The translations under genes were made by a program, and so were the position numbers. DNA of 64,000 nucleotides from the NCBI RefSeq assembly GCF_029350945.1, contig NZ_JARKMS010000001.1:710313-774312 (forward strand). The letters are read 5' to 3'. This document shows, in pieces, positions 37,900-54,995 of the stretch (positions within the stretch are counted from its first letter, which is position 1; every line of letters begins with the position of its first letter). Under the pieces are notes generated by a model that saw only the letters and a list, made by a program, of their open reading frames with translations, had not been told where the DNA came from and did not search any database. The stretch is from Maribacter huludaoensis. Its GTDB lineage: Bacteria > Bacteroidota > Bacteroidia > Flavobacteriales > Flavobacteriaceae.

Positions 37900-37958
37900 G
37901 GTTACATTCTTTTTAACTCATTTAAATCTACACATAGAAGTTTGTATTTTCATATCAC

Positions 37959-37997
37959 TGTAAAAAAATTTGACAATATCTGTACAACATTTTTACA
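37959..37997. promoter_or_regulatory. Paired 17-bp TGT-N11-ACA sites, unit 1 (probable NtrC-like enhancer)
   Basis: TGTAAAAAAATTTGACA at 37959-37975 and TGTACAACATTTTTACA at 37981-37997, start-to-start 22 bp. The same pair with the same spacing occurs at 46556 and 51675. It lies between the divergent NtrC-like regulator and the TolC-like gene, and the second site starts 80 bp upstream of the -24-like element. Confidence 0.7.
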
Positions 37998-38060
37998 CTG
38001 ATAAAATATGGTCAAATTTTATTTCAAGTTAAACACCTGTAAATCAATAATTTAAAATTA

Positions 38061-38076
38061 TGGCACGCATATAGTA
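38061..38076 (+). promoter_or_regulatory. Sigma-54-like promoter of the TolC-like gene
   Basis: TGGCAC at 38061 is a perfect -24 element. After 5 bp comes TAGTA, where the consensus is TTGCA; GG and the -12 G are 12 bp apart, as required. It lies 41 bp before the ATG at 38102. Confidence 0.65.
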
Positions 38077-38101
38077 TAGAGAATGGCATACCAATAAAGA
38101 A

Positions 38102-39454
38102 ATGAACAAAAAATTTAAAATAACGACACTTTTTCTGCTGACCATTTGGGCATCTGTATTTGCTCAAGAAAGTTGGACATTAGATGAATGTGTTTCATAT
38201 GCCTTAGTGCATAATTTACAGTTGAATGATTTTAAGTATACCAATCAATCTAATAAAGAAACCTATAGACAATCGGTTCGTAACTTGTTGCCATCGGTAA
38301 ATGCATCATCTAGTTATCTTGTTAATTATGGTAGGGCAGAAGATCCTAATACGGGAACATTTGTAAATCAGGATTTCTACTCTAATAATTATTCGTTGGA
38401 GTCCTCCATTGATTTGTTTCAGGGATTTCAAAAAATAAATGCCATTAAAGCATCTAAATTGTTGTTCAAAGCAACCAAAGAAGATGTGCTGCAACAAAAA
38501 TATTTACTGGCATTTAGGGTAATGCAAGCCTTTTATGATATTCAGTTTTTTGAAGGATTGGTAGAAATCTCAAAAGAACAATTAACGGTATCGCAAACCA
38601 ATTACAGTTTGGTAGAAAAGCAGGTAGAATTAGGCTTAAAAGCCGGTGCCGATTTATATGAGGCAGAGTCGTTACTATTGACCGATAAATTGAACGTAAC
38701 ACAAAGTGCCAATCAATTGGCGACGGCAAAATTAACCTTGATCCAAGAAATGAACTTGGAGAATACCTCTGAAATTGAAATTACAAAAGAATTGCCGCAA
38801 GTGGTAACAGATGCAATGGTTAACGAAATAAAATCTGATTCTGTTTACACCGAAGCTCGCGAGTTTTTACCATTGATAAAAGCTCAGGAATTAAGAGCTA
38901 AAGCAGCAAGAAAACAGGTTGCGGTCTCCAGGGGAAGATTGTATCCGTCACTTTCTTTCTTTGCAGGAATTGGTACTGGGTATTTTGAAACTACGAGAGA
39001 CACGCTTGGCAAAACCTTACCGTTTAGGCAACAATTTAGGGACAATACTTCGCAGTATATTGGAGTGAATTTGAGTGTGCCCATTAGTAACGGTTGGTCT
39101 GCACGATCACAGGTGAAGCAATCTAAAATAGAAAAGCTTCGTGCAGAGAATAATTTAAAGACACAAGAGCAAGAGTTGTTTCAAACCATTCAGCAATTAG
39201 TGCAAGATTATAATTCATTATTGGTAGAATTGGTGCAGAGCAACCAAAAAATGGAAGCGCAGAATTTAGCCTTTACCATTGCTCAAAAAAGATATGAAAA
39301 AGGACTGATAAATGCATTAGAACTTTTTACCGCCAAAAATTTATATGCTAGTGCACAAAATGAGAATTTGCAGGTAAAATTACGTTCAGAGATCAATAAA
39401 AGCACATTGGACTTTTACCGAGGACTTCCAGTATTTAATATTGAAGCCAACTAA
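38102..39454 (+). CDS. TolC-family outer-membrane efflux protein
   Basis: 450 residues. Signal peptide with cleavage near VFA/QE. The mature protein starts with SWTLDECVSYALVHNLQL, the usual OEP start, and has two homologous halves rich in long alpha-helices (QANQLATAKLTLIQEMN; EQELFQTIQQLVQDYNSLLVEL), separated by beta segments such as SASSSYLVNYG and YIGVNLSVPISNGW. TolC-like trimers form the outer-membrane duct for tripartite pumps. First gene of the unit with the adaptor, ATPase and permeases, behind the sigma-54-like promoter at 38061. Confidence 0.93.
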   Translation: MNKKFKITTLFLLTIWASVFAQESWTLDECVSYALVHNLQLNDFKYTNQSNKETYRQSVRNLLPSVNASSSYLVNYGRAEDPNTGTFVNQDFYSNNYSLESSIDLFQGFQKINAIKASKLLFKATKEDVLQQKYLLAFRVMQAFYDIQFFEGLVEISKEQLTVSQTNYSLVEKQVELGLKAGADLYEAESLLLTDKLNVTQSANQLATAKLTLIQEMNLENTSEIEITKELPQVVTDAMVNEIKSDSVYTEAREFLPLIKAQELRAKAARKQVAVSRGRLYPSLSFFAGIGTGYFETTRDTLGKTLPFRQQFRDNTSQYIGVNLSVPISNGWSARSQVKQSKIEKLRAENNLKTQEQELFQTIQQLVQDYNSLLVELVQSNQKMEAQNLAFTIAQKRYEKGLINALELFTAKNLYASAQNENLQVKLRSEINKSTLDFYRGLPVFNIEAN

Positions 39455-39512
39455 ATTTTTATTTGGAACCAGCAACCAAAAACGAACAAAGAACAACGAA
39501 CAAACGATTACC

Positions 39513-40763
39513 ATGGATATAAAATTAGAAAAGAAAAAAGGATTAAAACCAAAACACTACGGTTACATTGCTCTGGGTGTATTGCTACTATTTGTAGGTT
39601 ACCAACTGTTATTTGCCAGTTCGGTATCCACATTTAGAACCGAAAAAGATAAACTTTCGGTTGCTGAGGTGTCTGCAGGAAAATTCGATGATTATATTAC
39701 CATTAACGGTAACGTTGCGCCTATTGCAACTATTTATATGGATGCCTATGAAGGTGGTCGTGTAAGCGAAAAGTTAATAGAAGAAGGTGCTATGGTCAAA
39801 AAAGGCGATATCATCTTAAAGCTGGAAAACATGAATCTGTACGAACAGATTTTGGCGAGTGAAAGTAACCTGGCATTAAAGCAAAACGATTTAAGATCCA
39901 CAAAATTGAATTTCGATTCTAGACAAGTAGAAGGTAGAAAGTCATTGGCAACGGCAAGTACAGATCTGCAGCGGTTAAAGAGAAATTACGAGCAGAACAA
40001 AGCGTTGTTCGATGAGGAATTAATATCTAGGGAAGCCTATCAACTATCAAAAGAAAACTATGAACTTTCTCAAAAGCAGCATGAAATTGTAAAGTTACAG
40101 ACCGAGCAGGATGATGAGTTACGCGAAACTTCATTAAGAGGTTTGGATACAGATTTGGCTCGTATGCAAAAAACATTGGGTATGGTGTACCAAAGGCTGG
40201 ATCATTTAAATGTTCGGGCTCCTGCAGATGGTCAATTAGGATTTTTAGATGCTGAAATTGGTCAGAGTATTGCTCAAGGACAGCGTATTGGGCAAATCAA
40301 CGTATTAACAGATTATAAAATTGAAGCAGATATTGATGAGCATTATATTGATCGTGTAAAAAGAGACCTTACGGCGGTATTAGAGCGTAACGGTGCAGAA
40401 TTTCCATTGCGTTTACGTAAGGTATATCCAGAAGTTAGAAATGGTAGGTTCAAGGTAGATTTAGTATTTACCGATAATAAACCAGAGACCATACGTTCAG
40501 GACAGAGCTACAATATTAAATTACAATTGGGAGAATCTAATGATGCGCTTTTATTACCAAAAGGAAGCTTTTTTCAGAGTACCGGCGGTCAATGGATATT
40601 TGTACTAAACCCAGATGGAGGAGAAGCCATAAAAAGAAATATAAGAATAGGAAAACAGAATTCTAGATACTATGAAGTATTGGAAGGCTTGGAACCAGGG
40701 GAAAAAGTAATTACCAGTAACTATGATAATTTTGGGGAAGCCGAAAGAATAGTGTTGAAATAG
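39513..40763 (+). CDS. HlyD/MacA-like periplasmic adaptor protein
   Basis: 416 residues from ATG 39513 (MDIKLEKKKG); an in-frame ATG at 39441 overlaps the TolC-like gene and adds a tail without family counterpart. One N-terminal membrane segment (about 20-37), a biotinyl-lipoyl-like half (GGRVSEKLIEEGAMVKKGDIIL), a long coiled coil (about 120-210), then HLNVRAPADGQLGFLDAEIGQ and a beta-barrel domain. It connects inner-membrane MacB-type permeases to the TolC-like duct. Situated 58 bp after the TolC-like gene. Confidence 0.92.
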   Translation: MDIKLEKKKGLKPKHYGYIALGVLLLFVGYQLLFASSVSTFRTEKDKLSVAEVSAGKFDDYITINGNVAPIATIYMDAYEGGRVSEKLIEEGAMVKKGDIILKLENMNLYEQILASESNLALKQNDLRSTKLNFDSRQVEGRKSLATASTDLQRLKRNYEQNKALFDEELISREAYQLSKENYELSQKQHEIVKLQTEQDDELRETSLRGLDTDLARMQKTLGMVYQRLDHLNVRAPADGQLGFLDAEIGQSIAQGQRIGQINVLTDYKIEADIDEHYIDRVKRDLTAVLERNGAEFPLRLRKVYPEVRNGRFKVDLVFTDNKPETIRSGQSYNIKLQLGESNDALLLPKGSFFQSTGGQWIFVLNPDGGEAIKRNIRIGKQNSRYYEVLEGLEPGEKVITSNYDNFGEAERIVLK

Positions 40764-40821
40764 CTTCGGCTCCGCTCAGCTACCTATAAAGTTCAGTTTC
40801 GAACCCTGAGCGCAGCCGAAG
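40764..40821. repeat. Inverted repeat after the adaptor gene (CTTCGGC element)
   Basis: CTTCGGCTCCGCTCAG at 40764-40779 and CTGAGCGCAGCCGAAG at 40806-40821 are inverted copies with one mismatch, around a 26-nt loop. It begins directly after the stop codon of the adaptor gene. A further copy of the arm lies at 41644. It could fold in RNA and attenuate or protect the upstream message. Confidence 0.7.
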
Positions 40822-40910
40822 GGTAGAAAGTAGGAAAGAATTATCTTAAAATAAAAACTGTCACATCAGAGAATTTTCGATGTCATTATAACAATCAAAA
40901 TAGTAGGAAA

Positions 40911-41606
40911 ATGATAACCATTACAAACCTAAAAAAGAGTTTTAGAACAGAAGAAGTGGAAACCTTGGCATTGAACAGTGTCAACCTAAAAGTAGAAGAT
41001 GGCGAGTTTGTTGCCATTATGGGACCATCTGGTTGTGGTAAATCTACATTATTGAACATCATTGGTATGTTGGACAACCCAACGGAGGGTAGCTACAATT
41101 TTGCAGGTAATGAAGTGGGAGGCTTAAAGGAGAGCGAGCGTACCCAATTGCGTAAGGGTAATTTAGGTTTTGTATTTCAGAGCTTTAATTTAATAGATGA
41201 GCTTACCGTTTTTGAAAACGTAGAACTACCATTGATCTATTTAAAAATGGGAAAGGCAGAACGTAAGGAGAAAGTAATGAAAGTGCTGGAACGTATGAAA
41301 ATAGCACATAGGGAAAAACATTTTCCCCAGCAATTATCAGGTGGTCAGCAGCAACGTGTGGCAATATCAAGAGCGGTGGTTACCAATCCGAAATTAATAC
41401 TTGCCGATGAGCCAACGGGGAACTTGGATTCTAAAAACGGAATTGAGGTAATGAACTTGTTGACAGAATTAAACCAAGAAGGAACCACAATAGTAATGGT
41501 AACACACTCGGACAGAGACTCACATTACGCGCATAGAGTTGTAAATCTATTCGACGGTCAAATCGTAACTGAAAGTCAGAATAGGGCTATAGGTGCCATG
41601 ATGTAA
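40911..41606 (+). CDS. MacB/LolD-type ABC transporter ATP-binding protein
   Basis: 231 residues, a single ABC domain. Walker A GPSGCGKST (about residues 39-47), Q-loop FVFQSFNLI, signature LSGGQQQRVAISRAV, Walker B LILADEPTGNLDS and the H-loop VTHSD. The LolD/MacB-type insert SERTQLRKGNLGFVFQ is present. It powers the FtsX-like permeases encoded downstream by mechanotransmission; with five permeases and two ATPases in the locus, it may serve several of them. It follows the adaptor gene by 147 bp, including an inverted repeat. Confidence 0.94.
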   Translation: MITITNLKKSFRTEEVETLALNSVNLKVEDGEFVAIMGPSGCGKSTLLNIIGMLDNPTEGSYNFAGNEVGGLKESERTQLRKGNLGFVFQSFNLIDELTVFENVELPLIYLKMGKAERKEKVMKVLERMKIAHREKHFPQQLSGGQQQRVAISRAVVTNPKLILADEPTGNLDSKNGIEVMNLLTELNQEGTTIVMVTHSDRDSHYAHRVVNLFDGQIVTESQNRAIGAMM

Positions 41607-41643
41607 GGGAGTTTATTCATCAATCAATCATTAATTCTGTTCA

Positions 41644-41659
41644 CTGAGCGGAGCCGAAG
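41644..41659 (+). repeat. Third copy of the CTTCGGC/CTGAGCG element
   Basis: CTGAGCGGAGCCGAAG at 41644-41659 is the exact reverse complement of the arm at 40764-40779. The extended form CACTGAGCGGAGCCGAAGTG has complementary ends (CACT, AGTG). Confidence 0.65.
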
Positions 41660-41682
41660 TGAAGATTACTAATCGACCAACA

Positions 41683-41708
41683 AACCAAACCAACCAAACC
41701 AACCAAAC
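41683..41708 (+). repeat. 9-bp tandem repeat AACCAAACC
   Basis: AACCAAACC is repeated nearly three times (41683-41691, 41692-41700, 41701-41708 incomplete) in the gap before permease 1. No function is apparent. Confidence 0.6.
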
Positions 41709-41762
41709 TTATCCCTTAATCACGGATAATAATTTAATCATCGATCAATAAAAACGAGAGCC

Positions 41763-44180
41763 ATGTTCAGAAACCATCTTAAAATAGCCTGGAGAAGTAT
41801 TAAGAAGGATACGCTATTTGCCACCATTAAAATTGGTGGTTTTGCTGTTGGTATAGCGGCTTGTCTTTTAATAGCCTTGTTCATTCACAATGAAGTGGGT
41901 TATGATCAGCACTATACCAAAAAAGATCAGTTATATAGGGTAGTGTTAGAAGGCATGTACAAAGGTGAAGTCATGAAAAGCACTCACTTTCAATTACCCT
42001 TTGCAGAAGCCTTGCAAAATGATTTTCCAGAAATAAAAAAGGCAGGGAAAATAAATACAATTGAAATTTTTGGGGCAGGTAAACGCGGTATTCGCTTAGC
42101 TGGGGCAGCTCAAAATAACTTGGAAACCGGATTTGTGCTTGCGGATCAAGAAGCATTTGAACTTTTGGAGGTGAAGTTGCAACAAGGTAATTCTAAAACC
42201 GCATTGGCAAATCCTAAAAGTATTGTCATATCGGAAACCAAAGCGGCAAAGTATTTTAATGGGGATAAAATTTTGGGCGAAACCATCATTTTAGATAATG
42301 ATGAGAGTACTCCGTATACGGTAACCGGGGTCATGAAAGATGCTCCAAAAAACTCACATCTAGCCTTTGACTTTCTTTTACCTATAGAAGATACCAATGC
42401 AAACTGGACCAACCAGAATTACTTTACCTATGTGTTGGTAGATGACCATACGAACGTGCAGGAATTGGAACAAAAAATGGTTTCTATTGTAGAAGACTAT
42501 ATTATACCTGCACAGCGCGAACGAGGGCGCGCTCCAGACTTTATTGAGGTGCTTAGAACCATGAAGTACAAACTACAGCCCATAACCGATATTCATCTGC
42601 ATTCGGATATTAAAATGTCAGACGGACTTAAACATGGCGATATTCGTTTTGTTTGGCTTTTTGCCGCTGTAGCCGGTTTTGTGTTATTATTGGCAGTAAT
42701 TAACTTTATTAATCTTTCTACCGCAAAGTCTGCCAATAGGGCTAAAGAAGTTGGCTTAAGAAAAACCATTGGTGCTTTTAAAAGCAATTTGATAACGCAA
42801 TTTTTGACCGAATCTATGATGTTTAGTTTTGTGTCTTTTCTATTAGGTGTGTTATTGGCTTGGGCATTACTGCCAACATTTAACAACATGGCATCTAAAA
42901 CTATAGAAATGCCTTGGTCTGCTTGGTGGTTTGTTCCGGTAATAATAGTTGCCGCTCTTTTGGTAGGTGCTTTGGCGGGCTTATATCCGGCATTTTATTT
43001 GTCGGCATTTAAACCGGTAAATGTTTTAAAGGGAAGTCTTAGTATTGGTAGTAAAAGTGGCAAATTAAGGAGCGGACTCGTTATTTTTCAATTTACTACA
43101 TCGGTAGTACTGATCATTGCCACTTTGATTATTTACAAACAAATGGACTTTATTCTTCAAAAAGAATTGGGGTATGATAAGGAACAGGTTGTTGTTCTAG
43201 AAGGTACCGGAATCTTAGGGGAGAGTGCTGAAAATTTTAAAGAACAACTACTTCAATTGCCACAAGTGAAATCGGCTACCATTTCTAATTATTTGCCGGT
43301 AGATGGTGGTAGTAGAAACGGTAATACCTTTAGAAGGGAAGATGAAGGAAATGAAGGTAGAGGTATACCTGCCCAAATCTGGAGAGTAGATTATGATTAC
43401 ATTAAAACGCTGGGTATTACGGTTAAAACAGGAAGAGATTTTTCTAAGCAATTTGCATCTGATGCTTTGAATTCAATTATTATAAACGCCAATATGCAAC
43501 GTGAATTGGGCTTGGAAAACGCTATTGGCAAAGAACTAAACAATAACGGTCAACAGTTTAAGGTCATAGGTGTAATAGATGATTTTCATTTTAAGTCCTT
43601 AAAAGAAGATATTTCTTCGCTATCGCTCGTAATCGGTAAAGATTTAGGGTCTATATCGCTAAAGTTAGAAAAAGGAAATGTGAATGAAGCCCTGGCTTCA
43701 ATTACTTCGGTTTGGGATAAAAATGTGCCCAGTCAGTCCATTAATTATAGTTTTTTAGATCAAGAGTTCAGCAATATGCATGATGAGGTGGAACGTATGG
43801 GTAAAATATTCAACAGCTTTGCCCTGTTCGCCATTTTAGTTGCTTGTTTAGGTTTGTTTGCACTATCTGCCTTTATGGTAGAACAACGTAAAAAAGAGAT
43901 CAGCATCCGTTTGGTTTTAGGGGCTCCGTTTAAAAGCATCTATAAATTACTTACCGTAGATTTTATGAAACTGATTATAATTTCTATCGCCATTGCTATA
44001 CCTGTAGGGTGGTATTTAATGAGCCGTTGGTTAGAGGATTTTGCCTACCACATCACTATTGGTTGGGGCATATTCTTTATCGCAGGATTTATTGCACTGA
44101 CCATAGCTATTTTGACCATAAGCTATCAATCTATAGGCGCTGCGCTGATACAGCCTTTAAAAAGCTTGCGTAAAGAATAA
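41763..44180 (+). CDS. MacB/FtsX-type ABC permease 1
   Basis: 805 residues. Membrane segment near 20-42 (FAVGIAACLLIALFIHNE), a MacB-type periplasmic domain to about 275, three membrane segments with the FtsX motif AKEVGLRKTIGA, then YPAFYLSAFKPVNVLKG. A second periplasmic domain and a second FtsX set follow (CLGLFALSAFMVEQRKKEISIRLVLGA), ending in QPLKSLRKE. It is twice the size of E. coli MacB's membrane part and lacks a fused ATPase. First of five paralogues; shares the ATGs leader pattern with the others. Likely extrudes lipids, peptides or drugs with the TolC-like duct, or acts in envelope stress. The substrate is unknown. Confidence 0.9.
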   Translation: MFRNHLKIAWRSIKKDTLFATIKIGGFAVGIAACLLIALFIHNEVGYDQHYTKKDQLYRVVLEGMYKGEVMKSTHFQLPFAEALQNDFPEIKKAGKINTIEIFGAGKRGIRLAGAAQNNLETGFVLADQEAFELLEVKLQQGNSKTALANPKSIVISETKAAKYFNGDKILGETIILDNDESTPYTVTGVMKDAPKNSHLAFDFLLPIEDTNANWTNQNYFTYVLVDDHTNVQELEQKMVSIVEDYIIPAQRERGRAPDFIEVLRTMKYKLQPITDIHLHSDIKMSDGLKHGDIRFVWLFAAVAGFVLLLAVINFINLSTAKSANRAKEVGLRKTIGAFKSNLITQFLTESMMFSFVSFLLGVLLAWALLPTFNNMASKTIEMPWSAWWFVPVIIVAALLVGALAGLYPAFYLSAFKPVNVLKGSLSIGSKSGKLRSGLVIFQFTTSVVLIIATLIIYKQMDFILQKELGYDKEQVVVLEGTGILGESAENFKEQLLQLPQVKSATISNYLPVDGGSRNGNTFRREDEGNEGRGIPAQIWRVDYDYIKTLGITVKTGRDFSKQFASDALNSIIINANMQRELGLENAIGKELNNNGQQFKVIGVIDDFHFKSLKEDISSLSLVIGKDLGSISLKLEKGNVNEALASITSVWDKNVPSQSINYSFLDQEFSNMHDEVERMGKIFNSFALFAILVACLGLFALSAFMVEQRKKEISIRLVLGAPFKSIYKLLTVDFMKLIIISIAIAIPVGWYLMSRWLEDFAYHITIGWGIFFIAGFIALTIAILTISYQSIGAALIQPLKSLRKE

Positions 44181-44203
44181 TTCATCATCAAAAAACAAAA
44201 ATC

Positions 44204-46549
44204 ATGATCAAAAACTATTTAAAAATCGCTTGGAGAAACCTTTGGAAGAACAAGGGCTATAGTATGCTGAATATCTTTGGTTTGGCAATAGGTATCACCT
44301 GTGCGGCCATGATTTTGCTTTGGGTAGAAGATGAGGTTGGTTATGATGCTAATTTTGATAAGCAAGACGTGGTATATTATGTACCCACAAATCAGCAATA
44401 TGAAGGTGAGTGGCGTACATTTCATTCAACTCCCGGTCCGTTGGCAGAAGTTTTAAAGGAAGAGGTACCAGGTATTGTAGGTGCGGCCCGAACAAAAGAA
44501 GAAGATTTTTTATTTCAGGTAGGTGAAACGGCCATCAATAAAGATGGACGTTACGCAGATGCTGATTTTTTAAGGATGTTCAGTCTGTCATTTGTGGAAG
44601 GAAATTTGGAAACTGCTTTTAATGATGTAGATGCCATTGTTATTTCACAAGAAACGGCTACACAATTATTTGGTGAGAATATTTCAGCAATTAACAAAGT
44701 AATTAAAATAAACAACGAAGAAAGTTATACCGTTTCAGGAGTTTACGAAGATTTGCCGCACAATGTAACCTATAGTTTTGATTGGGTTGTTCCTTTTGAT
44801 CACTTTGCAAAGGATAATGAATGGGTAAACGAATATGATAGAAACTTCGCGGACACTTTTGTGGAACTTTCTCCAGAAGCAAATTTTGATGTGGTCAATA
44901 GTAAAGTAAAGGCAATACTACCAATGAAAACCGAGGACGATGAAACCATCGCCTTTTTATTCTCCATGAAAGATTGGCATTTACGTTCGGCATTTGAAGG
45001 CGGTAAAAATATAGGAGGACAAATAACCTATGTACGGCTGTTTAGTCTTATTGCACTCATTATTCTATTAATTGCCTGTATCAATTTTATGAACTTGGCT
45101 ACGGCACGTAGCGAGAAAAGGGCAAATGAAGTAGGGGTGCGTAAAGTTTTAGGCTCTGGGAGAAAAGGACTGATCTCTCAATTTATGGCAGAAGCGATAA
45201 TCACAGCAGGGTTATCTGCCGTGTTAAGTGTGCTTTTGTTAAAGTTTTTGGTGCCGCAATTTAATACCATGATCGGCAAACAATTAGCGTTAAACCTGGT
45301 AAACCCAACGCATTTGTTAACGCTGTTAGGTATCACATTGATTTGTGGCTTGGTTGCAGGCTGGTATCCGGCATTTTATTTGTCATCTTTTAAACCTGTA
45401 GACGTTTTAAAAGGAGCAAGAAGGTCAAAAGGAAGTGCCTCAGTGATAAGAAAAGGGCTGGTAGCTACTCAGTTTGTTGTATCCATAGTATTTATCATTA
45501 GCACCATTATCGTCTATCAACAAGTACAGCATGTAAAAGGTCGAGATTTAGGCTACAATAAAGAAAATCTGGTGAAAATTCCCGTTAACGGAGATATGAT
45601 CAAAAACTTTAAACCTATTGAAGAAGATATGAAATCTTCGGGGATGATAGAAAGCATCGGATTCATTAACTCTGATATTTTATCCGGTGGAAATAATACA
45701 TCGGGGTTAAGCTGGCAAGGCGGTGTAGATACTGAAGATGTACTGGTATCGGTTAGAGATATTACAGCAGATTTCTTCAACACTACAGGAATGAAAATTA
45801 TTGAAGGACGCGGATTTAGTAACAATCCTGCACAGGACAGTGTCAATATTATTGTAAGTGAATCTTTTGCAAAACTTATGGGTAACGGTAGTGCCATTGG
45901 TAAAACTATAGAAGAAGATTATCCTGTGATAGGGGTTGTAAAAGATTATGTGTACGGAGATATGTATGGTTCAAGTGACCCTGTCATTTTTTTTAACGAC
46001 CCTAGTCAAGCACGTTTTATGTACGTAAAAACTAAAACGGGTAAAGAAACAGCATTGGCACTAAATGCAATGGAAGCAACGTTGCACAGGTTTAACCCTG
46101 CGTTTCCTTTTGAATATGAATTTGTGGATGACACTTACGATGCCAAATTTAAGAGTGAACAATTAATAGGCAACCTTTCTCAAGTTTTTGCACTGCTGGC
46201 CATCCTAATATCTTGTTTGGGACTCTTTGGCTTGTCCGCTTTTACTGCAGACCAACGTAGAAAGGAAATTGGCGTACGAAAAGTACTAGGTTCAAGTATT
46301 ACAGGTATTGTGGGCTTATTATCTAAAGATTTTATGAAATTGGTAGGTATGGCAATAGTAATTGCAACGCCAATAGCCTGGTTGTTAATGCAGAATTGGT
46401 TAGAGGGTTTTGCATACAGAACTTCAATTAATGCTTGGGCGTTCATAATTGCCGGAGCGGTAGCCATTGTAATAGCGTTATTGACCATTAGTTTTCAGGC
46501 TATTAATGCAGCAAGGGTAAACCCGGTAAAAAGTCTAAGAACAGAGTAG
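44204..46549 (+). CDS. MacB/FtsX-type ABC permease 2
   Basis: 781 residues, same plan as permease 1: N-terminal segment LAIGITCAAMILLWVEDEVGY, periplasmic MacB_PCD-like domain, FtsX set with CINFMNLATARSEKRANEVGVRKVLG, motif YPAFYLSSFKPVDVLKG, second periplasmic domain, terminal set with EIGVRKVLGSS and the end NPVKSLRTE. It starts 23 bp after permease 1, so it belongs to the same transcript as the TolC-like gene. Divergence between the paralogues is mainly in the periplasmic domains, suggesting different substrates or partners. Confidence 0.9.
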   Translation: MIKNYLKIAWRNLWKNKGYSMLNIFGLAIGITCAAMILLWVEDEVGYDANFDKQDVVYYVPTNQQYEGEWRTFHSTPGPLAEVLKEEVPGIVGAARTKEEDFLFQVGETAINKDGRYADADFLRMFSLSFVEGNLETAFNDVDAIVISQETATQLFGENISAINKVIKINNEESYTVSGVYEDLPHNVTYSFDWVVPFDHFAKDNEWVNEYDRNFADTFVELSPEANFDVVNSKVKAILPMKTEDDETIAFLFSMKDWHLRSAFEGGKNIGGQITYVRLFSLIALIILLIACINFMNLATARSEKRANEVGVRKVLGSGRKGLISQFMAEAIITAGLSAVLSVLLLKFLVPQFNTMIGKQLALNLVNPTHLLTLLGITLICGLVAGWYPAFYLSSFKPVDVLKGARRSKGSASVIRKGLVATQFVVSIVFIISTIIVYQQVQHVKGRDLGYNKENLVKIPVNGDMIKNFKPIEEDMKSSGMIESIGFINSDILSGGNNTSGLSWQGGVDTEDVLVSVRDITADFFNTTGMKIIEGRGFSNNPAQDSVNIIVSESFAKLMGNGSAIGKTIEEDYPVIGVVKDYVYGDMYGSSDPVIFFNDPSQARFMYVKTKTGKETALALNAMEATLHRFNPAFPFEYEFVDDTYDAKFKSEQLIGNLSQVFALLAILISCLGLFGLSAFTADQRRKEIGVRKVLGSSITGIVGLLSKDFMKLVGMAIVIATPIAWLLMQNWLEGFAYRTSINAWAFIIAGAVAIVIALLTISFQAINAARVNPVKSLRTE

Positions 46550-46555
46550 TGGCTT

Positions 46556-46594
46556 TGTAAATATATTGGACATAATCTGTCTAAATATTTGACA
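46556..46594. promoter_or_regulatory. Paired 17-bp TGT-N11-ACA sites, unit 2
   Basis: TGTAAATATATTGGACA at 46556-46572 and TGTCTAAATATTTGACA at 46578-46594; start-to-start 22 bp, exactly as at 37959 and 51675. The second site starts 69 bp upstream of the -24-like element at 46647. Confidence 0.72.
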
Positions 46595-46646
46595 CTTAGT
46601 ATTTTGTGTATTTACATAAATAACTGAAAATCAATATTTTATATTT

Positions 46647-46662
46647 TGGCATAGAAATAGAA
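46647..46662 (+). promoter_or_regulatory. Sigma-54-like promoter of permease 3
   Basis: TTGGCAT at 46646-46652, 5-bp spacer, TAGAA at 46658-46662. GG (46648) and G (46660) are 12 bp apart. It lies 54 bp before the ATG at 46701. Confidence 0.6.
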
Positions 46663-46700
46663 TTTGATAATCCGTAATCAAGCATCAAAAAACGAGAACC

Positions 46701-49133
46701 ATGTTTAAAAACTATCTAAAAATTGCCTGGAGGAGTCTAAAAAAGCAAGCCTTTTTCACTTTTCTAAACACCTTCGGTCTAGCCATAGGAATGGCGGGGG
46801 CATTAATTATATCGCTTTATATCTACGATGAGCTTAGCTATGATAAAATGTTTGCCAATGCAGATAGGATTTATCGTATAGATTCTGATATCAAATTTGG
46901 TGGTGCGGAAATTAAGGCAGGAGAAGCTGCCGCACCCATGGCGGAAACCTTAAAAAGAGACTATCCGCAAGTAGAAGCTGCAGTACGTTTTAGGACCATA
47001 GGTAGTGCTTATGTTAAAAAAGTTGGAGGAAACAGAAGTGCCAAGGAAAACCATATCACCTATGCCGATTCCACTGTTTTTGAATTTTTTGGGATAGACT
47101 TACTTGCGGGTGATGCCAAAACAGCATTAACGGGGACTAATTCATTAGTACTTACCAAAACTGCCGCAGAAAAACATTTTGGCTCTACAGATGTTATAGG
47201 TCAAAATTTATTGTTGGATAATACCGATACCTATACGGTAACCGGAGTCATAGAAGACATGCCCAAAAATTCTTATTTCAATGACTATAGCGTGTTTTTG
47301 GCAATGGCGGGCAACGTGGCATCAAGAGAAGATAATTGGGGCGGTAATAACTATTTTACATTTATAAAGTTAATTCCCGGTGCCAAGGCCGAAGATTTTC
47401 AAGAGCCCTTACAAGGTATGTTAGAGCGTTACATGTTGCCATGGTCACAAAAATATTTTCCAGGTATGACGGCAGAGTCGTTTGCGGCATCCGGTAATTA
47501 TATTAGGTACCACACCATGCCCTTGACCGATATTCATTTGCATTCAGATAAAAACTCGGAAATGAGTGCAACGAGCAGTATTCAGAATATCTACATTCTT
47601 TCTTTTATTGGGCTGTTTTTGATCATATTGGCAAGTGTAAATTTTATGAATTTGTCTACGGCACATTCGTTAAAGAGGGCTAAAGAAGTAGGGGTGCGTA
47701 AAACCTTGGGCTCAAATAAACTGAATTTGGTCTTTCAATTTTTAACCGAATCAGGATTAATTGCATTTGTGTCCTTACTTGCGGCACTATTGATTACACT
47801 GGTAGTCTTGCCGTTTTTCAATAGCTTTACAGGCAAATCAATTGAAATTCCGTTTACGCAGCCCTTATTTTGGTTTGCGTTATTGGGGGCAACTATGTTA
47901 CTTGGACTGTTGTCAGGAAGTTATCCTGCGTTTTTTATGTCGAGGTTTACACCTGTTAAAACGTTAAAAGGTAACAGTTCTGAAAGTGTGGGCAATGGTA
48001 GGGTACGTAATGCCTTGGTAATTTTTCAATTTTCAATTTCGGTATTTCTTATCATCAGCACCTTGGTAGTATTTCAGCAATTGAATTATATACAGAATAA
48101 AGATTTGGGCTTCTCCAAAGACCAAGTATTGTTAATAAATGAATTGGGTGCATTAGGGTCCAAAACCAAAGCTTTTAAAGAACAGATTGCTAATATGGGT
48201 TTTGTAGAGAGTGCTACGTTGAGCAATTATTATCCAACGCCATCTTGGCGGTCAGATACTTCGTTCTTTGAAGAAGGTTCTAGAGATCAGGAAAGTGCCA
48301 TTCAAATGCAAGAGTGGGATGTAGATACAGATTATCTAAAAACTATGGAAATGGAACTGGTTGCCGGTCGTGATTTTAATCCTGCCTATACATCAGATTC
48401 TACAGCAATTATTATCAATGAAGCTACGCTGCCTATTTTAAATGTTACGGCAGAAGAAGCTTTAGGAATGCGTATATCCGAGGAAATAGATCAAGAAAAT
48501 CCTACCTACTATACCATAATTGGGGTGGTCAAAGACTTTCATTATAGAACGTTAAGAACCAATATAGACGCTTTGGGAATGCATTTAAATTCAAATGCAC
48601 AGAACATGGCGGTAAGAATGAGTGGTGGAAATTATGCCGATAATATTGCTGCAATAGAAAATACGTGGAACACTATGGCACCTGGTCAACCTTTTGATTA
48701 TCGATTTATGGATGAAGCTTTTAATACCACCTATGAAGCCGAACAAAAACTGAGTCAGATATTTTTCATTTTTACTATGCTGTCCATTTTTATTGCTTGT
48801 TTGGGATTATTTGGATTAGCTGCCTTTAATGCCGAAAAACGAACAAAAGAAATCGGTGTTAGAAAAGTGTTGGGAGCTACTGTAAGTCAAATTTCTTACC
48901 GGCTTACGGTAGATTTCCTAAAATTGGTAGGTGTAGCCATATTGATTTCTTTGCCCGTAGGATGGTATGTCATGAATAAATGGCTTGAAGATTTCTCTTA
49001 TAGAATAGAGATTGGTGTTGGGGTATTCCTGTTGGCGGCTGTGCTTGCCATTATCGTAGCAATACTAACGGTAAGCTACCAAAGTATAAAAGCGGCAATC
49101 GTTAATCCCGTGAAGAGTTTACGGTCAGAGTAA
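46701..49133 (+). CDS. MacB/FtsX-type ABC permease 3
   Basis: 810 residues, same double MacB/FtsX plan. Seen: LAIGMAGALIISLYIYDEL at the N-terminus, NFMNLSTAHSLKRAKEVGVRKTLG in the first FtsX set, YPAFFMSRFTPVKTLKG in the middle, LFGLAAFNAEKRTKEIGVRKVLGA near the end, and terminal NPVKSLRSE. It is the first gene behind its own sigma-54-like promoter and is followed 36 bp later by permease 4, forming a second transcription unit. Confidence 0.9.
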   Translation: MFKNYLKIAWRSLKKQAFFTFLNTFGLAIGMAGALIISLYIYDELSYDKMFANADRIYRIDSDIKFGGAEIKAGEAAAPMAETLKRDYPQVEAAVRFRTIGSAYVKKVGGNRSAKENHITYADSTVFEFFGIDLLAGDAKTALTGTNSLVLTKTAAEKHFGSTDVIGQNLLLDNTDTYTVTGVIEDMPKNSYFNDYSVFLAMAGNVASREDNWGGNNYFTFIKLIPGAKAEDFQEPLQGMLERYMLPWSQKYFPGMTAESFAASGNYIRYHTMPLTDIHLHSDKNSEMSATSSIQNIYILSFIGLFLIILASVNFMNLSTAHSLKRAKEVGVRKTLGSNKLNLVFQFLTESGLIAFVSLLAALLITLVVLPFFNSFTGKSIEIPFTQPLFWFALLGATMLLGLLSGSYPAFFMSRFTPVKTLKGNSSESVGNGRVRNALVIFQFSISVFLIISTLVVFQQLNYIQNKDLGFSKDQVLLINELGALGSKTKAFKEQIANMGFVESATLSNYYPTPSWRSDTSFFEEGSRDQESAIQMQEWDVDTDYLKTMEMELVAGRDFNPAYTSDSTAIIINEATLPILNVTAEEALGMRISEEIDQENPTYYTIIGVVKDFHYRTLRTNIDALGMHLNSNAQNMAVRMSGGNYADNIAAIENTWNTMAPGQPFDYRFMDEAFNTTYEAEQKLSQIFFIFTMLSIFIACLGLFGLAAFNAEKRTKEIGVRKVLGATVSQISYRLTVDFLKLVGVAILISLPVGWYVMNKWLEDFSYRIEIGVGVFLLAAVLAIIVAILTVSYQSIKAAIVNPVKSLRSE

Positions 49134-49169
49134 GCTAAGCATCAAACTTCATCAATCAAAAAGAACATC

Positions 49170-51599
49170 ATGTTAAAGAATTATATCAAAATAGCTTGGC
49201 GTAATTTAATAAAGAACAAGCAGCAAACTATTATCAACTTATTGGGTCTTACGCTTGGTACCGTAAGCTGTTTAGTAATATTGTTATATGTATTTGCGCA
49301 GTTGGGTTATGATCAGCACCATAACCAGGCGTCATCAATTTATAGGGTGGAGACAATTATAGATCGTGATGGTCAAGAATCTTTTGATTCCGCCACCTCG
49401 TCGCCACCAATAGCATTTGCATTAAAAGAAGATTTTGCCGAGGTAGAAGAAGCAACCAGAGTTGTATTGACCGATGCATTTTACAGTCCACTAATAAGAG
49501 CGACAAATAGCAAAGATGCTTACTATGAACCAAGGGTCTATTTAGCAGATTCAACTTTTTTCAAAGTATTCAATTTTAAAATACTTGAAGGTGATGAAAA
49601 AACGGCTTTAGATGAACCCAATACCGTAATGCTGTCATCATACTTGTCCGATAAGTTATTCGGCAAAACCAGTCCTTTGGACAAAACTGTAGTTTGGGGC
49701 AGTGGAGAAAGTGCATTAACCCTTACCGTAAAAGGAGTTTATGATGAAAAGGCTTATAAAACGCATTTTAATCCTAGTTATATTGTAAGTATGAGTACCC
49801 CGGGAATGGGAACCTTTGTACAGAACTTCCAAAGCTTTGCCACCAATAATTTTGCGTATAGTTATGTAAAATTGACTTCAAATGGTAGTGGTTTAGGTCT
49901 TCAACGTAAATTGCCCCAGTTTATGGAAGATAGAGGAGCGCAAGATTTAAAAGATGCCGGTATGAGCAGTAAGACGCTAGAGCTTACAAAAGTTACTGAT
50001 ATTCACTTGTACTCCAACGGTAGAAAAAATCAGCTGGATCGCGTATCTAATAGTACCTACCTTTATTTTTTACTGAGTTTGGCATTTTTTATACAATTGG
50101 TGGCATGTATTAATTTTATAAATCTTAGTACGGCTAGGGCTAGTAAAAGGGCGCGTGAAATTGGGGTTAGAAAAGTAGTTGGCGCAGGTAAAAATGCATT
50201 AATGCGGCAATTTTTGGGCGAGTCTTTGTTACTGTCCATATTCGCCATGTTGATTAGTATTCCTATAGTTATATTGCTTTTGCCATTTGTAAATGAAGTA
50301 ACACAAGAATTATTGACCTATACAAGTTTGTACCAATGGCAGATTTTGGTAATATTATTGGCTGTAGGTGTAGTTACAGGTTTGGCTTCAGGTGTTTATC
50401 CTGCTATAGTCCTGTCTTCTATAAAACCGGTGAGAGCATTAAAAAGTTCGGCTATTTTACAATCTGGTAGCGGTACCTTTAGAAAAGCTTTAGTAGTATT
50501 TCAATTTGTAATTTCTATATGTTTAATAAGTACGGTAATTATAATAGGCCAACAGTTTAAATATGCCCAAACCAAAGACTTAGGTTATAAAAAAGATAAC
50601 CTTTTGGCATTGCGGGTAGGGACCGAAGAATCATCTAATAAGTTTGAATCTTTAAAAGCATCATTTTTAAAAGTACCGGGCGTATTACAAGTGTCAAGTG
50701 GAAATTATTCGCCATCGGAAATTATATTGGCAGATAATGGATTTTACTTGCCTGGCGGAAATAAGGAAAATAAAACAGTGATAAAACGTAACGGCGTTAG
50801 CGATGGCTATTTTAACACCATGGGTATAGAATTGTTGAAAGGTAGGGATTTCAATGCTGCCGATACCGTAGACCAGATTATAGTGAACGAGGCTACGTTA
50901 AAGGCTTTTAATATTGATATTGAAAACGCGTTAAGTGCCACTTTGATGCAAAGTTATGGCGATGAAATTGACGAATTACGAATTATAGGTGTGGTAAAAA
51001 ACTATCATTTTGCTTCCTTAAAAGAAGAGATTCAGCCTTTGTTCCTGCATAAGGAAACGGAACCTAATTGGCTGTTTATTAAGGCAAACACAGAAAATTA
51101 TGGTCAGTTGCTACAAGGTTTGGAACAACAATGGAAATCTACGTTAAGTAACATCCCTTTTGATTATAGATTTGTAGATAAAGAAGTAGAAAAGTTATAC
51201 GAAGAAGAAAAGCGTTTAGGGTTTATCTCTGTAGGATTTACCATTTTAGCAATATTCATAAGCTGCTTGGGCTTATTTGGACTTATCTCCTATGTAGCGG
51301 AGCAAAAGAAAAAAGAAATAGGTGTACGAAAAGTGTTGGGCGCAAGTATACAGTCAGTGGTTAAATTACTAACGAAAGACTTTATTAAACTAGTACTCAT
51401 TGCTTTTGTATTGGCATCACCAATAGCCTATTACTTTATCTCTAGATGGTTAGAGGGTTTTACGTACCGTATTGAAATTAAGTGGTGGGTGTTTTTGGCA
51501 AGTGGTGTACTTGTTATGGTAATCACATTTTTGACCGTGGGACTGCAATCATTAAAATCAGCAGCTGCAAATCCCGTAAAAAGCTTGCGTTCAGAGTAA
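49170..51599 (+). CDS. MacB/FtsX-type ABC permease 4
   Basis: 809 residues, same plan. N-terminal LLGLTLGTVSCLVILLYVF, first FtsX set with CINFINLSTARASKRAREIGVRKVVG, midpoint YPAIVLSSIKPVRALKS, final set EQKKKEIGVRKVLGASIQ, end NPVKSLRSE. The gap to permease 3 is 36 bp with no promoter-like element, so it is co-transcribed with permease 3. Confidence 0.9.
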   Translation: MLKNYIKIAWRNLIKNKQQTIINLLGLTLGTVSCLVILLYVFAQLGYDQHHNQASSIYRVETIIDRDGQESFDSATSSPPIAFALKEDFAEVEEATRVVLTDAFYSPLIRATNSKDAYYEPRVYLADSTFFKVFNFKILEGDEKTALDEPNTVMLSSYLSDKLFGKTSPLDKTVVWGSGESALTLTVKGVYDEKAYKTHFNPSYIVSMSTPGMGTFVQNFQSFATNNFAYSYVKLTSNGSGLGLQRKLPQFMEDRGAQDLKDAGMSSKTLELTKVTDIHLYSNGRKNQLDRVSNSTYLYFLLSLAFFIQLVACINFINLSTARASKRAREIGVRKVVGAGKNALMRQFLGESLLLSIFAMLISIPIVILLLPFVNEVTQELLTYTSLYQWQILVILLAVGVVTGLASGVYPAIVLSSIKPVRALKSSAILQSGSGTFRKALVVFQFVISICLISTVIIIGQQFKYAQTKDLGYKKDNLLALRVGTEESSNKFESLKASFLKVPGVLQVSSGNYSPSEIILADNGFYLPGGNKENKTVIKRNGVSDGYFNTMGIELLKGRDFNAADTVDQIIVNEATLKAFNIDIENALSATLMQSYGDEIDELRIIGVVKNYHFASLKEEIQPLFLHKETEPNWLFIKANTENYGQLLQGLEQQWKSTLSNIPFDYRFVDKEVEKLYEEEKRLGFISVGFTILAIFISCLGLFGLISYVAEQKKKEIGVRKVLGASIQSVVKLLTKDFIKLVLIAFVLASPIAYYFISRWLEGFTYRIEIKWWVFLASGVLVMVITFLTVGLQSLKSAAANPVKSLRSE

Positions 51600-51674
51600 T
51601 TTTTGAAATGTATGGTCAAAACTTGGTTTAGCGTAGATGACAATGGTGTAACATTCTAATTTTTAAATGGTCAT

Positions 51675-51713
51675 TGTAAATATATTGTACATCTTTTGTC
51701 AAAATATTTTACA
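51675..51713. promoter_or_regulatory. Paired 17-bp TGT-N11-ACA sites, unit 3
   Basis: TGTAAATATATTGTACA at 51675-51691 and TGTCAAAATATTTTACA at 51697-51713; start-to-start 22 bp. Nearly identical to the pair at 46556. The second site starts 69 bp upstream of the -24-like element at 51766, as in unit 2. Confidence 0.72.
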
Positions 51714-51765
51714 CACGAAAATGTACTTTCATTTTAAGTATTTGATAATTAGGTCTTTAATATAG

Positions 51766-51781
51766 TGGCATGAAATTAGTT
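51766..51781 (+). promoter_or_regulatory. Sigma-54-like promoter of permease 5
   Basis: TGGCAT at 51766-51771, 5-bp spacer, TAGTT at 51777-51781; the GG to G distance is 12 bp. It lies 80 bp before the ATG at 51846. Confidence 0.6.
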
Positions 51782-54329: not shown

Positions 54330-54995
54330 ATGTTATTACAATTAAGAAATATTTTCAAATGGGTACAGCAAGGCGGTCAACGCGTGTTTTTGCTAAAGGA
54401 TATTAATTTAGAAGTACAGGAAGGCGAATTCATTTCAATTATGGGTCCGTCCGGTTCAGGGAAATCTACATTATTGAATGTTATAGGTATGCTAGACACG
54501 TTTGATGAAGGAGAGTATGATTTCTTGAACGAATCGGTACATACCTTAAAAGAAAAATACCGTTCTAATCTGTATAAAGAATATATAGGTTTTGTGTTTC
54601 AGTCATACCATTTGTTAGATGATCTTACGGTAGAGGAAAATTTGGAAATGCCTTTGTTGTACAAGAAAATAAAAGGTTCTGAAAGAAAGGCACTGGTAGC
54701 CGATATGTTGGATAGGTTCAATATTGTAGGTAAAAAAGATTTGTTCCCAACACAGTTAAGTGGTGGACAGCAACAATTGGTTGGTGTGGCACGAGCTTTA
54801 ATTGCAAACCCAAAACTGATATTGGCAGATGAGCCAACAGGCAACCTAAACTCTCAACAAAGCGAAGAAATCATGCAGCTTTTTAAGAAGCTTAATGAAG
54901 AAGAAGGCGTCACCATTATACAAGTAACGCATTCGGAAAAGAACGCCGAGTATGGTTCAAGAATCATTAATCTTTTAGACGGCAGACAGATTTAG
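54330..54995 (+). CDS. Second MacB/LolD-type ABC transporter ATP-binding protein
   Basis: 221 residues. Walker A GPSGSGKST, Q-loop FVFQSYHLL, Walker B LILADEPTGN and H-loop QVTHSE are normal. The signature reads LSGGQQQLVGVARAL, where the usual Arg after QQQ is Leu, and the D-loop has GNLNSQ instead of GNLDS. Neither removes the catalytic Glu or Walker Lys, so activity is probably kept. Last gene of the efflux cluster; probably serves permease 5, while the ATPase at 40911 serves the earlier ones (inference). Confidence 0.92.
   Translation: MLLQLRNIFKWVQQGGQRVFLLKDINLEVQEGEFISIMGPSGSGKSTLLNVIGMLDTFDEGEYDFLNESVHTLKEKYRSNLYKEYIGFVFQSYHLLDDLTVEENLEMPLLYKKIKGSERKALVADMLDRFNIVGKKDLFPTQLSGGQQQLVGVARALIANPKLILADEPTGNLNSQQSEEIMQLFKKLNEEEGVTIIQVTHSEKNAEYGSRIINLLDGRQI

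Follow-up and report, generated by a model that had tools for sequence, protein, structure and literature searches.

The predicted exporter locus

The window (the whole stretch of 64,000 nucleotides of Maribacter huludaoensis that was analysed) carries a two-component system on the minus strand and, divergent from it, a series of genes for a predicted membrane exporter:

35189-36535, minus strand: sensor histidine kinase, 448 aa, with PAS and HATPase_c domains
36535-37899, minus strand: NtrC-family response regulator, 454 aa, with receiver, sigma-54 AAA+ domain (GSFTDA loop) and Fis-type HTH
38102-39454, plus strand: TolC-family outer-membrane channel
39441-40763, plus strand: HlyD-family adaptor, start codon uncertain; top NCBIfam model DarC, below cut-off
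40911-41606, plus strand: ABC ATPase 1; top NCBIfam model DarD, below cut-off
41763-44180, plus strand: MacB/FtsX duplicated permease 1 (ADOP-like), without its own cassette in this locus
44204-46549, plus strand: duplicated permease 2
46701-49133, plus strand: duplicated permease 3
49170-51599, plus strand: duplicated permease 4
51846-54263, plus strand: duplicated permease 5
54330-54995, plus strand: ABC ATPase 2

The regulator matches the sigma-54 AAA+ domain (PF00158, 229.4 bits) and the Fis-type HTH (PF02954, 49.5 bits), and the genome encodes a single RpoN (one PF04552 match, 177.8 bits). Its loop reads GSFTDA where the NtrC-family hallmark is GAFTGA; among 63 orthologs the loop is GSFTDA in 45, GAFTDA in 17 and GAFTDS in one. 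An identity with NtrC itself was rejected (TIGR01818, 353.5 bits, below the NCBIfam equivalog cut-off of 558.6), as was PspF (a receiver domain is present, and TIGR02974 scores 264.3 against a cut-off of 443.55); the top-scoring model, TIGR02915 for the PEP-CTERM response regulator, also stays below its cut-off (395.8 against 502.6). A plasmid search with the regulator as query gave closest relatives of only 55.9% identity. Relatives of the kinase adjoin orthologous regulators in L112 and L113 (67%), in L222 (72%, partial) and in L225 (56%, partial).

For the exporter genes, the darobactin exporter DarBCD was considered and rejected, the scores being 209.8 for DarC, 299.5 for DarD and 130-175 for DarB against NCBIfam equivalog cut-offs of 450, 375 and 700; the adaptor does score above the cut-off of the general RND_mfp subfamily model. 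The two top NCBIfam models of the five permeases are ADOP, then DarB, and assignment to ADOP was also rejected (TIGR03434, 284-329 below a cut-off of 622.3), though the match spans nearly the full length. An Rfam scan of the window returned no RNA family match.

Three predicted promoter cassettes

Ahead of the tolC gene, permease 3 and permease 5 lie three cassettes with the same succession of elements:

37923-37930, minus strand: TAGATTTA, the predicted -7 box of a primary-sigma promoter for the regulator gene; enhancer site 1 is 28 bp away
37959-37975, no strand: tolC cassette, enhancer site 1
37981-37997, no strand: tolC cassette, enhancer site 2
38030-38054, no strand: tolC cassette, 25-bp IHF-like palindrome that departs from the symmetric pattern by 1 mismatch
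38061-38074, plus strand: tolC cassette, sigma-54-like -24/-12 element TGGCACGCATATAG
38084-38089, plus strand: second TGGCAT, located 23 bp downstream of the first TGGCA
46556-46572, no strand: permease-3 cassette, enhancer site 1
46578-46594, no strand: permease-3 cassette, enhancer site 2
46617-46641, no strand: permease-3 cassette, 25-bp IHF-like palindrome, exact
46647-46660, plus strand: permease-3 cassette, -24/-12 element TGGCATAGAAATAG
51675-51691, no strand: permease-5 cassette, enhancer site 1
51697-51713, no strand: permease-5 cassette, enhancer site 2
51735-51759, no strand: permease-5 cassette, 25-bp IHF-like palindrome, 1 mismatch
51766-51779, plus strand: permease-5 cassette, -24/-12 element TGGCATGAAATTAG

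The initial annotation had described six 17-bp TGT-N11-ACA sites in a 22-bp register and three TGGCAY-N5-TAG elements, 80, 69 and 69 bp after the second sites, and we recovered all of these at the same positions and distances. Three pairs at 22 bp occur in the window against 0.01 expected, a number reached by none of 100 shuffles, and the exact pair is not a random occurrence, as the whole genome of 4,236,768 bases holds these three places only and the reversed control none. Since lone TGT-N11-ACA sites are not above chance (16 versus 19.3 expected), the signal resides in the pairing. When up to two mismatches are allowed, the window contains 9 pairs (3.85 expected), and none of the additional ones falls in the other intergenic gaps of the cluster, two of which (44180-44204 and 49133-49170) had been described as devoid of the pair; a further near-site follows the permease-3 pair at 46600-46616 (one mismatch in the pair). 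The proposal that the motif rule could find more members of the regulon failed here, the exact rule yielding no further target, and the regulon in this genome is this locus only.

The sigma-54 consensus is TGGCA at -24 and TTGC at -12, GG and GC being separated by 10 bp. TGGCAY-N5-TAG by itself occurs 5 times against 0.97 expected and is present in all three cassettes, but its -12 part proved to be T-N-G and not TAG alone; the strict rule was dropped in favour of T-N-G, which fits the comparative set. Across 61 orthologous loci T-15 and G-13 are invariant, and C at -12 is found in only 14; the promoters presumed for groES and grpE in this genome, by contrast, retain GC.

Conservation of the cassette and its tie to the regulator

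The pair is present in 35 of 36 genomes of the genus, our own included, at 93 places versus 9 for the control (table totals summed by hand). From these matches we used 20 regions of 18 other genomes of the genus, and in these together with the window 51 of 54 oriented matches precede a TolC or permease gene, the remaining three being two pairs read backwards and one at the end of a region. Conservation at orthologous loci, on which the initial annotation would have stood or fallen, is clear: among 66 loci whose regulator is 71-100% identical, 61 have the pair upstream of the divergent gene, followed after 79-81 bp by TGGCA, the pair being exact in 55 and bearing one mismatch in 6.

In the wider set, 148 cassettes belong to what we call type A, counting a TGGCA only when 62-83 bp from site 2. 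Their sites share an A at position 6 (144/148 in site 1, 148/148 in site 2) and a T at position 12 (148/148 in both), and the next gene is a TolC, permease or exporter ATPase in 137; the other 11, among them two DUF2807 genes and L219, comprise 7 without an ORF call and 4 others, and for at least two of the 7 tblastn identified the gene, as TolC in L074 and a permease in L080. Maribacter and Zobellia both have the type-A system. In two other genera lone scattered permeases bear the same cassette, so that membership is defined by the cassette and not by the operon. From the wider search 30 loci were stored, extra genome parts were selected for holding sites, and some matches (L054, L073) resemble chance and lie inside genes; all these counts concern sequences that are kin and not independent, nearly all regions having been selected for the site or the regulator.

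Distances from site 2 to TGGCA fall at 64, 68-71 or 79-82 bp in 126 of 129 cases, with nothing at 72-78, and so form two classes about one helical turn apart, a correction to the initial annotation. This histogram covers TGGCAY-N5-T-N-G within 17 to about 150 bp in either direction; 8 pair places lie outside it, having no such element in reach, namely L044 and L098 (one locus, type B), L104 (type B), L093 (contig end), L108, L130, L172 and L184. By eye, the spacers between the motifs differ strongly across many genera and the motif positions are constant.

A regulator ortholog, 66-85% identical, is encoded in all 25 genomes chosen for a type-A site, and 30 of 40 genomes chosen without a site match have neither the ortholog nor its paralog. 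The paralogous regulator goes with a different site sequence in the same 22-bp register (type B; the A and B labels follow a script rule based on CGAACA-like endings). In 15 of 15 genomes chosen for type-B sites the closest relative of the window regulator is only 47-50% identical, and type-A sites thus track the window regulator and not its paralog. B-like regulators were also checked in 7 genomes (8 stretches) without a site match: L208 has an exact pair in a 21-bp register, L209 a pair with one mismatch at 21, L212 one mismatch at 22 and L215 three mismatches at 22, L211 and L214 have other palindromes, and L210 and L213 no convincing site pair. The recognition-helix comparison omits L122, L123, L179 and one truncated protein. 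Among more distant relatives of the regulator (L184-L196, 49-54% identity) none of 13 combines an exact pair and a TGGCA within reach of it, L184 having an exact pair followed by TTGGCC; in L179, of the Bacteroidales (regulator 59%), an exact pair is followed after 80 bp by an element with a TTGC -12 box.

A palindrome between enhancer and -24 box

Each cassette also contains a predicted IHF-type palindrome that the initial annotation had missed. Its symmetric pattern, YAA-N4-YTGAWWWTCAR-N4-TTR, amounts to two inverted IHF half-sites; the IHF binding consensus is WATCAANNNNTTR, and IHF sites are asymmetric. The right half of the tolC palindrome (38042-38054) is an exact WATCAANNNNTTR, as is the left half of the permease-5 palindrome on the minus strand. 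At least 8 of 10 core letters are found in 125 of 136 type-A cassettes against about 0.5% of shuffles, and WATCAANNNNTTR stands at the fixed place exactly in 21/74 tolC and 7/62 permease cassettes and within one mismatch in 39/74 and 24/62 (shuffle means below 0.5), shuffle controls that overstate significance because the WATCARNNNNTTR form and the 10-letter core were picked after viewing the alignment. The fairer test is by counts of the symmetric palindrome, which are 44 versus 5 places genome-wide and 61 versus 0 in 12 other genomes. It is also found in 7 of 8 type-B cassettes. Two DNABII proteins of this genome (C7:662539-662805 and C12:157367-157636) are candidates for binding it. In the window, WATCAANNNNTTR alone is mildly over-represented (15 versus 8.1). 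A loosened IHF half-site ahead of TGGCA was rejected as a genome-wide feature (8 places, two of them in this locus, versus 3 in the control). The presumed grpE and groES promoters are without the loosened half-site by eye.

The predicted promoter of the regulator gene

Two further features had escaped the initial annotation: a second TGGCA in the tolC cassette and the constant spacing between the enhancer and the predicted promoter of the regulator. The sequence TA-N2-TTT[AG] lies exactly 28 bp from the enhancer in 56 of 61 orthologous loci and at 27-29 bp in 60; in the window, a TTG is absent from the -33 position. As the pair keeps a fixed distance from this predicted primary-sigma promoter, the regulator most likely controls its own gene, and the position of the enhancer suggests autoregulation. 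The second TGGCA, which lies near the start site, occurs at exactly 23 bp in 37 of 61 loci; with 22-25 bp allowed, 56 of 74 tolC cassettes have it and 0 of 62 permease cassettes. It was rejected as a second sigma-54 promoter, having no T-N-G partner by eye.

Proposed mechanism and alternatives

The cassettes, their conservation, their spacing and their tie to the regulator are properties of the sequences themselves, and the proposal of an NtrC-type regulator, sigma-54 promoters and a single regulon, as predicted from one locus, is well supported by the comparison. We hold it probable that three complete enhancer-promoter cassettes, each formed of a pair of 17-bp palindromes spaced by two helical turns, an IHF-like bend site and a sigma-54 -24/-12 promoter, stand under the adjoining regulator and co-open the exporter units. 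The membrane kinase would sense a signal, which we guess to be envelope stress or a toxic compound; the phosphorylated regulator would then assemble on the site pair, and a bend at the symmetric IHF-like site would allow it to reach RNA polymerase-sigma-54. Three promoters would thereby be opened together, serving units that we infer to be tolC-hlyD-ATPase 1-permeases 1-2, permeases 3-4 and permease 5-ATPase 2, with a putative role in export, and the regulator may also act on its own primary-sigma promoter from the same pair. Several observations sit uneasily with this reading: the canonical -12 C is mostly missing, the loop is GSFTDA and not GAFTGA, the exact IHF half-consensus stands at the fixed place in a minority of cassettes, and 8 pair places have no TGGCAY-N5-T-N-G in reach.

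The pairs could be operators of the regulator without the TGGCAY elements serving as sigma-54 promoters, action being on primary-sigma promoters at all sites; the weak -12 box would fit, as would the fixed 28 bp between the pair and the -7 box of primary-sigma type that belongs to the regulator gene, but TGGCA stands at one of two fixed distances, the -12 T and G are invariant, the regulator has a sigma-54 AAA+ domain and the genome an RpoN, and in Flavobacterium psychrophilum sigma-54 promoters have been mapped and one checked by mutation (PMC9723704, in the part considered here), so that we find this improbable. Still less credible is that the cassettes are alike through recent copying of promoter-permease units, with spacing devoid of function. 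The permeases are indeed paralogous arrays that vary between genomes, but the spacers differ strongly by eye in many genera with constant motif positions, and the distances fall into classes about one turn apart, leaving 72-78 empty.

A doubt of greater weight concerns the block before the -24 box, for which it is quite conceivable, if not our preference, that it serves a different dimeric regulator as operator, or is contacted by the RNA-polymerase alpha subunit, and is not IHF-type. Its clean palindrome, set against the asymmetry of IHF sites, and the minority of exact IHF matches speak for this, and against it are the fit of both halves to the IHF half-consensus with its spacing, its occurrence under two different regulators (type A and most type-B cassettes) and its over-representation in this genome and in the 12 others. 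Within the IHF-type reading, we put forward only tentatively, as a rather doubtful extension, that a homodimeric IHF-like protein of Flavobacteriaceae reads the 25-bp site genome-wide and is an obligate bender in a modular cassette that spread together with exporter permeases, and that its enhancer, at a distance constant to the base, also drives the primary-sigma promoter of the regulator, in which case a single NtrC-type protein would serve two sigma classes from one site pair.

The enhancer code described here would belong to an exporter regulon of many Flavobacteriaceae, and the published sigma-54 work, in the portions considered, gives promoters and no enhancer sites. Two sister regulators, each matched to its own site sequence within a common geometry, make specificity testable by a recognition-helix swap, and the natural spacing variants (69/70 versus 80 bp) are usable for looping studies. 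Two predictions follow from the analysis: that a DNA-bending protein of Flavobacteriaceae has a symmetric, sequence-specific IHF-like site, and that membrane exporters form an expandable set under a single two-component regulator.

Comparison with known systems

In E. coli, pspA is expressed from a sigma-54 promoter with two upstream activating sites and the assistance of IHF, and the sigma-70 promoter of the activator gene pspF is controlled from the same enhancer (PMC3709507). Judged by the part of that work considered, the present locus resembles it in layout, with a site pair, a candidate IHF-like sequence and a predicted divergent -7 box in one region; unlike psp, its activator contains a receiver domain and is partnered by a kinase, its targets are exporter genes, the cassettes are several and alike and the IHF-like site is symmetric. 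In Bacteroidia, matrices have predicted sigma-54 promoters before FtsX-like ABC permeases (COG0577), and sigma-54 control of this family is shared with our proposal (PMC12316311); the portion of that paper considered describes neither enhancer sites nor a cognate regulator, and gives no spacing rule and no IHF-like element; its text nowhere mentions IHF or integration host factor, upstream activation, EBP binding or an enhancer sequence. Finally, the adaptor, ATPase 1 and permeases resemble the darobactin exporter DarBCD and ADOP in having these as their top NCBIfam models, below the curated cut-offs, and the locus differs from both in combining several permeases with a dedicated two-component system.

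Exporter cluster and its paired sites

The cluster of the window and its cassettes (each a pair of 17-bp TGT-N11-ACA sites, 22 bp start to start, then a palindrome and a TGGCAY-N5-T-N-G element) comprise:

Kinase gene: PAS and HATPase_c domains
Response regulator gene: receiver, sigma-54 AAA+ and Fis HTH domains
Exporter genes: TolC, HlyD-type adaptor, ABC ATPase, five MacB/FtsX-type duplicated permeases, second ATPase
37959 and 37981: sites of the tolC cassette
46556 and 46578: sites of the permease 3 cassette
51675 and 51697: sites of the permease 5 cassette

Permeases 2 and 4 were identified by NCBIfam model scan. The best NCBIfam models are DarC for the adaptor, DarD for the first ATPase and ADOP for the permeases, each below its cut-off, and the adaptor is above the cut-off of the general RND_mfp model. 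Because the regulator is 100% identical to that of Maribacter sp. MAG-157 and 98% to that of M. litoralis, we place the genome, on protein identity, within Maribacter. It encodes one RpoN, five strong sigma-54 activators (>228 bits) and six weaker matches (20-36 bits), likewise above the Pfam cut-off.

All six sites and the three TGGCAY-N5-TAG elements lie where the initial annotation had placed them. The window has three full pairs for an expectation of 0.01 from shuffles, and single TGT-N11-ACA sites show no excess over chance there; the information is thus carried by the pairing and its position, not by single sites. Nor is the pair scattered at random genome-wide, since the 4,236,768 bases (15 contigs) hold it at the same three places only, with none in the reversed control. 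The expectation that the exact rule would retrieve the rest of a regulon in this genome failed, as it returns this one locus only. A third near-site (46600-46616) lies 22 bp past the permease 3 pair, giving a pair with one mismatch.

Conservation and two site types

The pair is present in 35 of 36 same-genus genomes, the window's own included, and in 30 of the 30 good assemblies; it occupies 93 places versus 9 in the control (totals added up from the table), and a few of the 93, in GC-richer sequence off the cluster, look like chance. In a sample selected for carrying pairs (the window and 20 regions of 18 other same-genus genomes), 51 of 54 oriented matches lie before TolC or a permease, two others being pairs read backwards and one lying at a region end. 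The regulator scan retained 80 loci, with regulators 71-100% identical in 66 (L117-L183 without L179), and the proposed conservation at orthologous loci was borne out in 61 of these 66, where the divergent gene is preceded by a pair, exact in 55 loci and with one mismatch in 6, and TGGCA follows the pair at 79-81 bp. As for the exceptions, L122 reaches a contig end, in L130 and L172 the pair is exact and CGGCAC replaces TGGCAC (by eye), L163 has a 23-bp register and one mismatch (by eye), and L154 has no pair, none being seen by eye. Family-wide, the pair with TGGCA at a gap of 48-66 bp was found in 75 of 397 genomes and 58 of 237 genera, with 7 control places (counted from the table).

This family search yielded two site types: type A, TGT-M-N-A-N5-T-N-N-ACA, as in the window, and type B, which resembles TGTATCAAAACCGAACA, keeps the 22-bp register and has TGGCA 69-70 bp on. 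From the family scan we drew 80 genomes (25 with A sites, 15 with B sites and 40 without match) and assigned regulators by best E-value among the matches listed. Among these matches, all 25 A-site genomes have a regulator 66-85% identical and all 15 B-site genomes a best relative 47-50% identical, and the no-match genomes comprise three with an A-like regulator (62-78%), seven whose best relative is B-like (44-49%) and 30 with neither. The three A-like cases show an exact pair with CGGCAT, a one-mismatch pair and a contig end. The predicted recognition helices differ consistently between types, being SRQTLYNK in A (consensus of 63 sequences) and TR(T/A)ALYRR in B (7 sequences).

A 387-aa sigma-54 activator at L094:9244-10407 has no residues at the HTH columns of the alignment and may lack a DNA-binding domain; related open frames of about 387-395 aa occur in many of the 80 genomes among the matches listed.

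Promoter elements and spacing

When TGGCAY-N5-T-N-G was accepted from 17 to about 150 bp off in either direction, the 129 distinct spacings from second site to TGGCA fell at 64 bp (1), 68-71 bp (35), 79-82 bp (90) and 103 bp (3, all the second TGGCA at tolC), with none at 72-78 bp; eight additional pair places have no such element within this reach. Counted per gene, with TGGCA accepted at 62-83 bp only, the spacing is 79-81 bp in all 74 TolC cassettes, 64 (1), 68-71 (36) or 79-82 bp (25) in the 62 permease cassettes and 70 bp in all eight B cassettes. About one helical turn separates the two spacing classes, in sequences that are related, so that the events are not independent.

In the tolC promoters (n=61), T at -15 and G at -13 are invariant, -14 is A, G or C (T in none), and C stands at -12 in only 14, while the presumed grpE and groES promoters of the window's genome keep TTGC and CTGC as their -12 boxes; their orthologs in F. 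psychrophilum are given as sigma-54 promoters in PMC9723704. The exporter promoters therefore look like a weakened form of the sigma-54 promoter. The B promoters (n=8) have C at -12 in six and G at -13 in none.

A second TGGCA (38084-38089 in the window) follows the -24 box by 22-25 bp, close to where transcription would be expected to start; it occurs in 56 of 74 tolC versus 0 of 62 permease cassettes. No -12 partner was seen by eye in the named orthologous loci, and the element could be a sigma-54 pause or decoy element or the site of another regulator.

IHF-like palindrome

The stretch between enhancer and -24 box contains YAA-N4-YTG-N5-CAR-N4-TTR, with 5 or 6 bp from its end to TGGCA; it consists of two inverted copies of WATCAR-N4-TTR, a loosened form of the IHF half-consensus. 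At least 8 of 10 core letters are kept in 125 of 136 A and 7 of 8 B cassettes versus 0.3-0.5% of shuffles. In each window cassette one half is an exact match to WATCAANNNNTTR (38042, 46629, 51735 on the minus strand), a consensus that on its own shows only mild enrichment in the window (15 vs 8.1). With up to one mismatch, the symmetric pattern has 44 places in the genome (e.g. contig positions C7:591694, C8:1073174 and C10:313300) versus 5 in the reversed control. Eleven of the 44 match exactly; the window cassettes account for three of the 44, one of them exact. Fifteen loci were inspected (the 11 exact and four with one mismatch, one being a window cassette): 12 are intergenic, two are inside frames and one overlaps the very start of a predicted frame. 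At L256 an exact palindrome stands beside another sigma-54 activator gene and is followed by CGGCACATCAATTGCCG, a canonical-looking putative sigma-54 promoter.

Twelve other family genomes hold 61 exact palindromes versus 0 in the control, some in each genome, at least two being cassettes (G209, G249) and four in G071 resembling copies of one repeat; seven of the 12 have no A or B regulator among the matches listed. The window's genome has two DNABII proteins, nearest to the HU-beta and IHF-alpha models, both below cut-off, and we infer that a putative homodimeric IHF-like bender would read the palindrome. PMC3969353 treats a Porphyromonas HU protein, and the word "consensus" is absent from its text.

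Genes behind the cassettes

The 156 non-redundant cassettes comprise A cassettes followed by TolC (74), a permease (62), the second ATPase (1), other genes (4) or no ORF (7), and B cassettes followed by HlyD (8). In 20 other family regions, the 20 cassettes are all followed by an exporter gene: TolC (7), a permease (11), the second ATPase (1) or, in type B, HlyD (1). Scattered cassettes occur in two other genera (G053, G410), where tolC adjoins the cassette in 2 of 15 regions inspected, a permease in 10 and a DUF2807 gene in two. The last region (L219, G053) has an A-type cassette aimed at small unknown frames, then SusC/SusD-like genes, possibly by chance. The DUF2807 (Toastrack) genes adjoining A-type cassettes, in two genera, are L221:7254-7859 and L230:7175-8038; PMC11237479 unifies DUF2807 with the Toastrack domain of envelope-stress systems, at most a hint that the regulon might be linked to an envelope-stress signal.

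Predicted promoter of the regulator gene

Towards the regulator gene, the pair is flanked by a predicted -7 box, TA-N2-TTT[AG]. Its distance to site 1 is exactly 28 bp in 56 and 27-29 bp in 60 of the 61 loci, and is kept in 9 of the 10 loci whose start codon is 114-204 bp away. TTG, the -33 element of primary-sigma promoters, is not enriched at its expected place in the 61 loci. Of 12 type B loci, 11 have a box TAnn[AT]TTG at a distance of 56-58 bp, and some of these contain additional matches. The primary-sigma consensus is given as TAnnTTTG in PMC9723704. Since the box distance is conserved to the nucleotide and the leader length is not, the arrangement points to direct control by the regulator of its own gene, as either activator or repressor. 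E. coli PspF represses its own gene from the pspA enhancer, assisted by IHF (PMC3709507).

Comparison with known systems

Sigma-54 control of FtsX-like permeases is already published as a prediction, a 2025 survey (PMC12316311) reporting predicted sigma-54 promoters enriched at such permeases in Bacteroidia. A full-text search (titles and starts of abstracts, few subscription journals) found no prior description of the enhancer sites, their cognate regulator or the symmetric IHF-like site, and PMC3162934 does not mention Bacteroid-, Flavobacter-, ABC, efflux, FtsX or MacB. The layout works like that of the psp region, yet the system, as judged from its activator, is not psp, because both the model score and the domain order set this protein apart from PspF.
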